DNA of 47,657 nt from Massilimicrobiota sp. An134 (lineage in GTDB: Bacteria; Bacillota_I; Bacilli_A; Erysipelotrichales; Coprobacillaceae), in the NCBI RefSeq assembly GCF_002160815.1, contig NZ_NFLH01000017.1, forward strand, positions 1-47,657, written 5' to 3'. Within the stretch, counting starts at the first letter, position 1. Each line of letters starts with the position of its first letter. Shown here in pieces: positions 6,184-27,344 of the stretch. A program made the position numbers and the translations under genes. The notes under the pieces were generated by a model. It was not told the origin of the DNA. It did not search any database and saw only the letters and a list, made by a program, of their open reading frames with translations.

Positions 6184-6249
6184 ATTATATCAAAATAATT
6201 GATTCATCTTACTTTTTTAGATGAACTTATTTTTGATTTGACCCTTTAG

Positions 6250-7613
6250 TTAATACCCTAGTTTATATATCTTCTTTTTAGCAATAAACTGTGTCAAATA
6301 AAATGGAATACATAATATATCTTTATCTTTAGATACATCTTTTGAGTGAATAATATAGCGATTAAGAATTCTGTCAGAAAATTTAACATAAAATTCATCA
6401 ATAGAAGTATGAACCTTATAATTTGATGATTTGACTTCAATAGGGCAAATCTTATTTTTCCTAAATAGTATAAAATCAATCTCATAATTTTTCTTTTGCT
6501 TAACATTAGAAAAAGTATAATAAAATAATTCATTTCCTGTTGACGTTAATATCTGTGCAACTGCATTTTCATATAAATAGCCTAAATTTGCAGAAAGTTT
6601 GTCATTCAATAATTTTTCATAGATAATATTATCTGTAAAGTCTTTATCCTTAAATTGAAGTGTAACAAACAGTCCTGTATCGGCCAGATACAACTTGAAT
6701 TTGTTTAAATCTTTATATGCAGACAATCCTACATTAGGGTCATTTGCATGATATGCAACACTCACGACCTTAGAATCCTTTAGCTCTGAAATCATACTTA
6801 AAATAGAGTTATCAGTCGTTTTATATGAATTCAACATTTTCTTCGTTTGAAATCCTCTGGTGTTCTTGTTTAACTGGGATGGAATTGCTTCAAAAAGCAT
6901 TGCCAATCTTCCAGTAGAATCAATTTTTCTAAAATCATCCTCATACAAATTTAGAATATCTCTTTTTACCATATCTACTTTTCTAAAATTATTCGTTGTA
7001 ATGTATTCATTGACAGATTGTGGCATTCCACCTACCAGCATATATAAACGAAAATCACGCATCAACTTTCGATTCAGCCTGTCTCCAAAATTCTTCTTAT
7101 TATCAAATACGCTTTTCAATAACTTCATAGTAGAATTATCATTCAAAGCCCAAAGAAATTCTTCAAAATCCATTGGATGCATTTGCAGTTTTCTTTCTTC
7201 ACTTGGAATGAGAATATCTTTCACATTTTTTTTGATTGAAATCACTGAACCAGTTTCAATATAATCATATCTTCCATCCTTTACCAATGTCTTGATTGCT
7301 TGTCTTGCATAAGGGCAAAGCTGTACTTCATCAAAAATAATAACAGACTTTCTTTCGATTAAGTCTACTTTATATTGCAATTGAAGTTGAAGAAAAAAAT
7401 AATTCAAATCAGACATATCATCGAATAACTCTCTAATTTGTGCAGAAGCAATAGAAAAATCAATGAGGATATAACTATCATATTCCATCTTTGCAAATTC
7501 TTCTACTATAGTTGATTCCCAACACGGCGTGCTCCTTCAATAAGTAGGGCTGTCTTCCCATTTGATTCTCTTTTCCACTCTTTTGTTTTTTCATAAATTT
7601 TTCGCTTAAACAT
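6250..7613 (-). pseudogene. AAA ATPase with DUF4143, frameshifted in Walker A
   Basis: The true start is the ATG at 7613, preceded by ATAGGAGGA, reading MFKRKIYEKTKEWK and on to LLIEGARRVG. Exactly at the P-loop lysine codon one base is missing (about 7516-7520, GGGAATCA where GGGAAATCA is expected). The frame then hits TAG; shifting by -1 restores STIVEEFAKMEYDSYILIDFS and the rest of the protein to 6250. Walker B is VIIFDEVQL. The C-terminus carries EIDFI followed by PIEVKSS, a PD-(D/E)xK-like site usual in DUF4143 proteins. It is clearly paralogous to the intact gene at 26019-27344. Without the shift it would be 454 aa. The role of this ATPase family is not established. Confidence 0.85.
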
Positions 7614-7642
7614 TGGCAAATTCCTCCTATAAATTTATTATA

Positions 7643-7688
7643 TCCAAAAATCGCAATAAAATTTCTACATAAACCTCCAAAAATCGCA
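7643..7688. repeat. 13-bp direct repeat, 33-bp period, upstream of ATPase pseudogene
   Basis: TCCAAAAATCGCA occurs twice, starting at 7643 and 7676. On the minus strand it lies 30-75 nt before the ATG at 7613, in the presumed leader or promoter of the AAA/DUF4143 gene. A tandem array of the same 33-bp period, but of different sequence, precedes the intact paralogue. Confidence 0.65.
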
Positions 7689-7895
7689 CTGATTTTCTCC
7701 TGCAAAAAAAGAAATTTGAGTGTTGGATTTTGTCCCTCCTCTCTATTTTTGATAGTGTCGTTAAAAATACGAGTTTATTCAATGTAGATAGTTCTTATTA
7801 TCTTCTAATACATCTTATATATTTTTCTTCAAATCCAGCACATTTCAAGATTAATTCTAAATAGTTTTTCATGAAATATGTTTTCATTAATATAA

Positions 7896-25565: not shown

Positions 25566-26018
25566 AATATCACCTTTCCTATCTTCACTATACATAAAAA
25601 AAAGAAGAATAATGAAAAAAATTATGAAAGATTTTCTAAAAAGCATTCTATATTCGTAGCTTTACAATAATAAACAAATATTATTGTTATGATTAATATA
25701 AAACGGTTCTACTCGACATCATGAGTGAGTATTTGAGTAAACGATATATTCATTTTATACATAGATATATGAGTTGAAATCAATTATAAAATATAACTCA
25801 AAATCCTATATTAATGAATAATTATAATCTCATCAATCATAATATAAAATATACATTACATATTAATACCCAATCTCATAACCTATAATTTTGAAGAAAT
25901 GTATGATTTGGCATAAAATAATATTGAAGAAATGTATGATTTAGCATAAAATAATATTGAAGAAATGTATGATTTAGAACAAAACAATATTGAAGAAATG
26001 TAAAAAGGAGTGATGGCA
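25566..26018. other. Very AT-rich intergenic region containing a 33-bp tandem array
   Basis: No gene with a ribosome site is seen on either strand. The left two thirds are AT-rich with no clear structure; the right end holds a tandem repeat (25891-26000) that runs into the ribosome site of the AAA/DUF4143 gene. Confidence 0.6.
25891..26000 (+). repeat. 33-bp tandem repeat, 3.3 copies, just before an AAA/DUF4143 gene
   Basis: Copies start at 25891, 25924, 25957 and 25990 (the last partial). Each opens with TTGAAGAAATGTATGATTT. Copies 1 and 2 differ by one base; copy 3 has diverged in its second half. The partial copy ends directly at the AAAAAGGAG ribosome site. The period is 11 codons or about three helical turns; an in-frame TAA in copies 1 and 2 argues against a translated repeat. 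Confidence 0.9.
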
Positions 26019-27344
26019 GTGTATTTCAAAAGAAAAGCTTACGATAAATTAATAGATTGGAAATCAAATTATGCTGATAACTATGCTGTTTTGTTAGAAG
26101 GTGCAAGACGTGTAGGAAAATCAACAATAGCTAAATTATTTGCTGAAAATGAGTATAAATCATACATTTTGATAGATTTTTCAATTGCTTCAGCTGATAT
26201 ATTATCCTGCTTTGATGATATTAATAATTTGGATATGTTTTTTTTAAGGTTACAGGCAATCACTGGAATTAATTTATATGAACATGAGTCAGTTATTATT
26301 TTTGATGAAGTACAGTTATTTCCTAAAGCCAGACAAGCAATTAAGCACTTGGTAAAAGATGGACGATATCATTATATTGAAACTGGTTCTTTAATATCCA
26401 TTAAAAAAAATGTGAAAGATATCTTAATCCCTTCTGAAGAAATGAAAATTGAAGTCTATCCTATGGATTATGAAGAATTCTGCAATGCCACAGGAAATAA
26501 TTATAATTTAATAAAGCAATTGTTTGATATGAAAAGAGCAATTGGTCAAGAAGTGAATAGAAAACTCATGAGAGATATTAGGATATATATGGCAGTCGGT
26601 GGTATGCCTCAAGCTGTTGAAGCATATGTGAATGGGAATAATTTTTCCACTATAGATAATGTAAAGCGTCAAATTATTCATCTTTATGAAGAAGATTTCA
26701 AAAAAATAGATCCATCAGGAAAAATATCTGCGCTTTATCATTCAATCCCCGCTCAATTAGCTAAAGATCAAAAGAAATACCGTATGTCCACTGCGCTAAA
26801 AAAGAGAACGACGATTAAAGAAGAAGAATTATTATTTGATTTATTTGATTCTAAAACTGTATTACCCTGCTACAATTCAACCGATCCTAAAGTGAGTTTG
26901 ACTTCAACGAAAGATTTAAATAGCTATAAACTCTATTTATCTGATACGGGATTATTCGTAACACTTATGTTTATAGACCGACCTATTACAGAAAATGAAA
27001 TATATGCTAAACTTCTTTCTGATAAATTACCAGCAAATTTAGGATATTTATATGAAAACTTAATGGCACAATTATTAGCTTCAAAAGATAGAGAATTATA
27101 TTATCATACATGGCAAAAAGAAAATAGCACTCATTATTATGAGATAGACTTTTTAATTTCTGAAGGTAGTAAAATTTCAGCTATTGAGGTCAAATCTTCA
27201 GGTTCGGGTAAACATGATTCTATATGTAAATTTGAAAAAAAATATTCAAAACATATAAAAAATTGTTATATCTTTTCGCAAAAAGACTACAAACAGGAAA
27301 ATGGTATACAGTTTATGCCCATATATTTAGCCCCATTTATATAA
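26019..27344 (+). CDS. AAA ATPase with C-terminal DUF4143, intact paralogue
   Basis: A 441-aa protein. Walker A is EGARRVGKSTIA (about residues 27-38) and Walker B VIIFDEVQL, followed by a sensor-like YIETGSLISI. The C-terminal DUF4143 part carries YEIDFLISEGSKISAIEVKSSG, a PD-(D/E)xK-like nuclease-fold signature. It is a widespread family of unknown function in gut bacteria, often in several copies per genome. AAAAAGGAG ends 8 nt before the GTG at 26019, which gives MYFKRKAYDK aligned with the paralogue's MFKRKIYEK, so this start is preferred to the GTG/ATG at 26010/26013. The second copy, at 6250-7613, is frameshifted. Confidence 0.87.
   Translation: MYFKRKAYDKLIDWKSNYADNYAVLLEGARRVGKSTIAKLFAENEYKSYILIDFSIASADILSCFDDINNLDMFFLRLQAITGINLYEHESVIIFDEVQLFPKARQAIKHLVKDGRYHYIETGSLISIKKNVKDILIPSEEMKIEVYPMDYEEFCNATGNNYNLIKQLFDMKRAIGQEVNRKLMRDIRIYMAVGGMPQAVEAYVNGNNFSTIDNVKRQIIHLYEEDFKKIDPSGKISALYHSIPAQLAKDQKKYRMSTALKKRTTIKEEELLFDLFDSKTVLPCYNSTDPKVSLTSTKDLNSYKLYLSDTGLFVTLMFIDRPITENEIYAKLLSDKLPANLGYLYENLMAQLLASKDRELYYHTWQKENSTHYYEIDFLISEGSKISAIEVKSSGSGKHDSICKFEKKYSKHIKNCYIFSQKDYKQENGIQFMPIYLAPFI

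Follow-up and report, generated by a model that had tools for sequence, protein, structure and literature searches.

The window, i.e., the whole 47,657-nucleotide stretch of DNA from Massilimicrobiota sp. An134 analyzed herein, carries two AAA_14/DUF4143 genes, one broken and one intact, each preceded by a short array of direct repeats (Table 1). The broken copy has one frameshift adjoining the Walker A motif, and its two pieces hit one common set of relatives. Upstream of this gene, TCCAAAAATCGCA was found exactly at 7643-7655 and 7676-7688, at a spacing of 33 bp and 30-75 nt 5' of the ATG at 7613 on the minus strand, just as the initial annotation had described for a 13-mer pair before an ATPase pseudogene. 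Its statement that a different 33-bp unit precedes the intact copy was likewise borne out, with four cores at 33 bp immediately 5' of the intact paralogue, where TRF reported 3.6 copies of this unit at 25885-26002. Throughout the window, exact direct repeats of at least 13 bp at spacings of 15-60 were present at six places, four of which had the spacing 33, and all four of these were located at the two DUF4143 genes; the chance expectation for such repeats was 0.05 at spacing 33 and 0.20 over any spacing from 15 to 60. In the 2.56-Mb genome, each 33-bp core pair was unique to its own gene except for one site with three mismatches to the TTGAAGAAATGT pair, and a third DUF4143 gene (L001), located outside the window, was preceded by a 32-bp array.

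Table 1. Features of the two DUF4143 loci in the window
Feature	Position	Strand	Remarks
Accessory segment with broken gene and its array	~6238..7888		Clean gap in sister genome G003; also absent from G001 and G002
AAA_14-winged helix-DUF4143 gene (PDC-S01, clade B)	6250..7613	-	Frameshifted near Walker A
SD-like AGGAGG, broken copy	7623-7628	-	Read from sequence
-10-like hexamer TATAAT, broken copy	7637..7642	-	Directly 3' of second core; read from sequence
Two-unit operator-like array, broken copy	7643..7688	-	Coding-strand cores TGCGATTTTTGG(A), spacing exactly 33
Four-core array, intact copy	25885..26002	+	TTGAAGAAATGT at 25891, 25924, 25957, and 25990
Promoter-like TTGAAG-N17-TAAAAT, intact copy	25891-25919, 25924-25952	+	Within units 1 and 2
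Intact PDC-S01 gene (AAA_14 + winged helix + PD-(D/E)XK/DUF4143)	26019..27344	+	Likely GTG start at 26019

The window protein contained the Pfam domains AAA_14 and DUF4143, and its residues 1-439 matched the PADLOC model PDLC04786 for PDC-S01 (E 1.9e-91); PDC-S01 models also matched representatives of the clades A (1.6e-61), D (9e-103), and C (7e-149) described below. According to the passages on this family in PMC12988326, PDC-S01 is a widespread single-gene phage-defence candidate with an ATPase fused to a PD-(D/E)XK domain. It is reported to rank fourth in abundance among the predicted defence genes of prokaryotes, with its activity and mechanism unvalidated, and is thus only suspected to act against viruses. 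In an alignment of 55 proteins (A4), G28, G33, and K34 of the Walker A motif, as well as the acidic and lysine residues E375/D377 and E390/K392 of the nuclease-fold domain, were all invariant. No relative was retrieved by a sequence search of the PDB. In the AlphaFold2 model (mean pLDDT 90), an AAA+ core and a helical part were recognized, together with a winged helix at approximately residues 235-307 and a C-terminal nuclease-fold domain. The best solved structural relatives of the model were the archaeal ATPases 2qen (Z 16.2, 268 residues, rmsd 4.9) and 2fna (Z 14.9), followed by CED-4 (Z 14), plant NLRs, and EfAvs5 (STAND). As judged from this model, the protein possesses a STAND-like AAA+ core with a winged helix that structurally matches known STAND members. 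Residues 1-318 of the model have a fold similar to those of PABY2304 (2qen), SSO1545 (2fna), CED-4, NLRs, and EfAvs5, whereas the C-terminal nuclease-fold domain is extra to PDC-S01 in comparison with these relatives. A model of a clade A protein, which was based on five sequences and showed a pLDDT of 54, was left out of the analysis.

DUF4143 genes were gathered from the genus, the family, and the class. After correction of their strands and assignment of start codons, ungapped tandem repeats with all periods between 15 and 60 were sought in the 300 nt preceding each gene. An array score of at least 15 was obtained for 49 of the 119 distinct full-length class-level genes, and none of 357 shuffles reached 13. 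The few strong matches in the controls, for which other genes of these loci were used, were mostly DUF4143 arrays seen from divergent neighbours or genes missed by the first model. At the class level (128 genes), the arrays lay directly 5' of the start codon, and their periods were almost only 23 (46) and 32-34. On a tree of the 128 proteins, built by a quick method with SH-aLRT support and divided into clades A-D, all 18 clade A genes showed a period of 23/46, and 35 of the 53 clade B genes showed 32-34/66, the remaining third being without a detectable array in this first sample. Periods of 40/80 or 73-76 bp were found in 7 of the 35 clade C genes, and clade D displayed none of the array periods 23/46, 32-34/66, 40/80, and 73-76. 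The confinement of 23/46 to clade A and of 32-34/66 to clade B corresponded to Fisher p values of 3e-22 and 2e-18, respectively, with kinship ignored, and three changes on the protein tree suffice for the period class of 63 genes. Long palindromes upstream of the start were present in 12 of 22 clade D genes (versus 1% of shuffles) and in 11 of 35 clade C genes (shuffles 1-3%); of long inverted repeats, none was seen in clade A and few were seen in clade B. These clade-specific periods, together with the palindromes in clade D and part of clade C, indicated an association between protein clade and type of cis element.

PDC-S01 genes thus usually carry their own evenly spaced promoter repeats, the spacing of which is set by the branch of the protein. 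The initial annotation had regarded the repeats as a property of the gene family, and this view was supported by the arrays in most clade A and B genes and by the period tracking the protein tree. The shared 33-bp period on which it was founded held as a constant of clade B (32-34) but not of the whole family, since clade A has 23, clade C 40 or 73-76, and clade D palindromes. The tandem-repeat survey of homologues that it had proposed gave a period constant within clades A and B and a sequence varying by lineage, and neither of the two outcomes that would have spoken against it, i.e., repeats absent from most homologues or periods dispersed at random, was observed within clade B.

Several loci exhibited further arrangements of their own. 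In the clade D loci L027, L049, L058, L026, L048, and L078, palindromes were situated approximately -70 to -10 from the start with no direct repeats, and several clade D palindromes had a centre like GGAGTTGAACTCC, apparently a second operator type within the PDC-S01 family. L072, L134, L135, and L073 carried pairs of near-identical inverted-repeat sites located 73-76 bp apart, and at L036 (clade A), alternating 23-bp units GCCAAACGCCGGATTGAAAAGTT and GCCAAATTGCCGATCAAAAGAGT formed a 46-bp higher-order array extending beyond -300. At L112 (G089:C11), L108 (G058:C17), and L125 (G062:C4), two to three PDC-S01 genes with unlike array types were found close together; the periods 34, 23, and 33 stand side by side at L112, which offers a natural test of cross-talk.

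The relation between clade and period was also seen in genes outside the first sample. Six clade A relatives were subsequently identified in viral contigs, and all of them fell on 23/46, L156 showing 46 at a weaker score. As for clade B, 105 relatives were collected from species genomes and viral contigs, the hosts covering Lachnospiraceae, other Clostridia, Treponema and other spirochaetes, many Bacteroidales, and one Chloroflexota MAG. An array was detected in 80 of these 105 genes, the period being exactly 33 in 64 genes and falling on 32-34 or 66 in 76, as compared with 10 of 369 random control windows, none of them at 33. Plasmid copies were in line with this, with periods of 33 in Agathobacter (L281) and Segatella, 23 in Collinsella, and 66 in Parabacteroides, and a Fusobacterium copy had a period of 32. 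In a Moraxella plasmid copy, a long palindrome covered the -10-like hexamer, and no clear array was found upstream of the Agrobacterium and Thermus copies.

The segment containing the broken gene and its array is an accessory insertion (Table 1). The intact copy was present in two sister genomes, with an array of four units in G000 and G002 and of two units in the G003 orthologue, and proteins more than 70% identical were found in spirochaetes, Lachnospiraceae, and the window genome. The gap at the segment, the sharing among sister genomes, and the cross-phylum relatives together indicated that the gene plus its array behaves as one accessory unit. PDC-S01 copies in the window genus (L002, L007, L009, L010, L013, L015, L019, L020, and L022) were in many cases frameshifted or truncated, some of them at the ends of contigs. 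This suggests that PDC-S01 is often gained and then decays within the genus. Relatives of the window protein were found in 78 of 72,556 plasmid records and in 13 of 50,697 phage records, and a close link of the family to phages was rejected on the basis of the latter number.

The sequences of the cores, as well as their spacing, followed the proteins. In the subfamily of the intact copy (L043, L101, L102, and L160-L166; 70-83% protein identity), the hosts of which are this genus and family, Lachnospiraceae, and spirochaetes, the core TTGAAGAAA was 95-100% conserved, and most spacer columns reached 30-66%. The protein of the broken copy was 67-69% identical to those of L184, L206, L180, L199, L204, and L177, and its relatives shared the core CGATTTTG at 89-95% and at the 33-bp spacing, whereas they lacked the core of the neighbour paralogue. 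A core like that of the broken copy was also located at the same spacing before the Agathobacter plasmid copy L281. Within one array, the spacers differed while the cores were identical, and cores were common to close relatives across phyla and different between lineages. Protein pairs with more than 75% identity had a unit common to both in 89% of cases, as against 2-7% for those below 60%. The gene-specific core pairs in the genome and the retention of each copy's core by its own relatives agreed well with the earlier supposition that each gene has its own repeat. Linked descent alone would give close relatives common units, yet it would not keep cores over spacers.

We also assessed which protein segment covaries with the unit sequence. 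Once overall identity was removed, the winged helix was the segment best predicting unit similarity over all pairs in two scoring schemes, in one of which it narrowly passed the 95% permutation limit (0.108 versus 0.101). In close protein pairs, the winged helix fell below the permutation limit and residues 11-35 were favoured instead, and a third scoring peaked at residues 356-380, not at the winged helix. These tests, which disagree and lie at the edge of significance, are suggestive only of the winged helix reading the unit sequence.

According to promoter calls made by consensus matching, with transcription starts unmapped, a promoter-like sequence overlapped the array in 84 of 119 clade B genes. 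The core lay between -35-like and -10-like hexamers in L186, L193, L204, L182, and L241, and in L101, L043, L003, and L160, the core TTGAAG doubled as a -35-like hexamer, a -10-like one following 17 bp downstream. In the clade C loci L134, L135, and L072, one site was positioned before the -35-like and the other after the -10-like hexamer, and such paired flanking sites would suit looping or double occlusion. The clade A arrays mostly stopped just 5' of the promoter, approximately 22 bp upstream of the -10. The positions in clades B and C favour repression by occlusion, and that in clade A would also suit activation. Judging from these calls, clade B has what characterizes an autoregulatory operator, namely a series of sites extending over the promoter of the candidate binder's own gene.

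We thus propose that the gene product itself probably reads the repeats as an autoregulatory operator array, the geometry of which is set by the protein clade. Each PDC-S01 gene unites a STAND-like AAA+ ATPase, a winged helix, and a PD-(D/E)XK nuclease-fold domain in a single protein, and this protein would bind a row of asymmetric sites of approximately 12-20 bp each, arranged in the same orientation in its own promoter, with the winged helix reading the core. The geometry of a head-to-tail oligomer would set the spacing, 23 bp in clade A and 33 bp in clade B, and clades C and D would employ other spacings or one palindrome. Binding to the array would occlude RNA polymerase and thereby hold a potentially harmful nuclease low by autorepression, which a trigger such as infection may relieve. 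Since the core is lineage-specific, a gene moving to another phylum would take its own switch along and could stay free of cross-talk with the paralogues in its cell.

It seems unlikely that the arrays are read by another regulator, such as a host transcription factor, or serve as a sigma-factor-related promoter element. Although several clade B cores do resemble promoter hexamers, e.g., TTGAAG followed by TATAAT 17 bp on, individual cores persist across hosts from more than one phylum, the copies within a single genome differ in their cores, and it is the tree of the ATPase that the period tracks; moreover, the paired cores occur nowhere else in the window genome, except for the single 3-mismatch site.

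Slightly less credible still is a self-recognition role beyond autoregulation, a tripwire in which a clade-specific oligomer docks on its own array, serving both as the operator and as an inactive holding site, from which the protein would be freed to attack when a phage disturbs that DNA or promoter. Such a switch would fit a single protein that combines the motifs of an ATPase, a winged helix, and a nuclease fold (E375/D377 and E390/K392 being invariant) and has at least two gene-specific sites. It would also fit the structural matches, the best of which include the STAND-type relatives CED-4, NLRs, and EfAvs5. Plain autoregulation, however, accounts for all the observations, and the defence activity of PDC-S01 is unvalidated according to the passages concerned (PMC12988326).

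It is very improbable that the repeats act as RNA, either as leader repeats or as guide-like units transcribed with the gene, even though the last units sometimes reach the Shine-Dalgarno region (e.g., L120 and L003). Promoter-like sequences are located within or after most clade B arrays, and most units would therefore be outside the mRNA; the absence of long inverted repeats in clade A, their scarcity in clade B, and the freely diverging spacers also argue against this reading. Neutral slipped-strand duplication or chance repeats in AT-rich DNA, with which the whole-unit difference between the arrays of G000 and G002 (four) and G003 (two) and the many short chance repeats listed by TRF are compatible, can hardly explain a period fixed by clade across phyla, identical cores with differing spacers, and the lack of any control at 33. 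Two further candidates were rejected. A remnant coding sequence (33 being 11 codons) was discarded on account of the stops in every frame read of the window units and of the period of 23, which is not a multiple of codons. As for phage targets or decoys, the TTGAAGAAATGT pair was found in no viral contig, and the GCGATTTTG pair was found in ten, which is little above rough chance and with no DUF4143 gene seen there.

The autoregulatory operator array has counterparts among known repeat systems. Plasmid iterons are direct repeats of approximately 20 bp bound by an adjacently encoded Rep protein, with a sequence particular to each protein. PDC-S01 arrays resemble them in being direct repeats of protein-specific sequence beside the gene of the presumed binder, but they are mostly chromosomal and lie in a promoter, their 33-bp spacing exceeds that of typical iterons, and no function in replication or partition was indicated. 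No replication gene was found among the scanned neighbours (GH32, HAD, MatE, glycosyltransferase, an RpiR-type regulator, and GH1). In comparison with a CRISPR-like array, PDC-S01 arrays consist of a few short cores within a promoter, and the same neighbours included no cas-like domain. RptR is a separate dimeric repressor in a defence island that recognizes 9-bp repeats around a 6-bp palindrome (PMC12255303). Its likeness to the present case is that this repressor sits on three direct repeats overlapping the -10 of its own defence promoter (PMC12255303), and this precedent makes the self-operator mechanism plausible. In the present case, by contrast, the ATPase-nuclease would itself be the binder, and its sites are asymmetric and spaced at 23 or 33 bp.

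In the passages on PDC-S01 in the literature (PMC12988326 among them), no upstream arrays, operator, or mechanism were found. Likewise, the open-access literature, a coverage outside which most subscription journals and preprints fall, yielded no description of PDC-S01 arrays, and DUF4143 was found mentioned there in a Thermus Argonaute study only. The suggestion of an undescribed system in the initial annotation accordingly requires division: the protein family itself had already been catalogued as PDC-S01, and the new part is the arrays with their clade-specific period. By naming the DNA that the protein should bind, the arrays provide a first mechanistic handle on PDC-S01, and they predict the geometry of its oligomer as 23 or 33 bp per step. 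They also suggest how paralogues could coexist in one cell and how function could persist after cross-phylum transfer.
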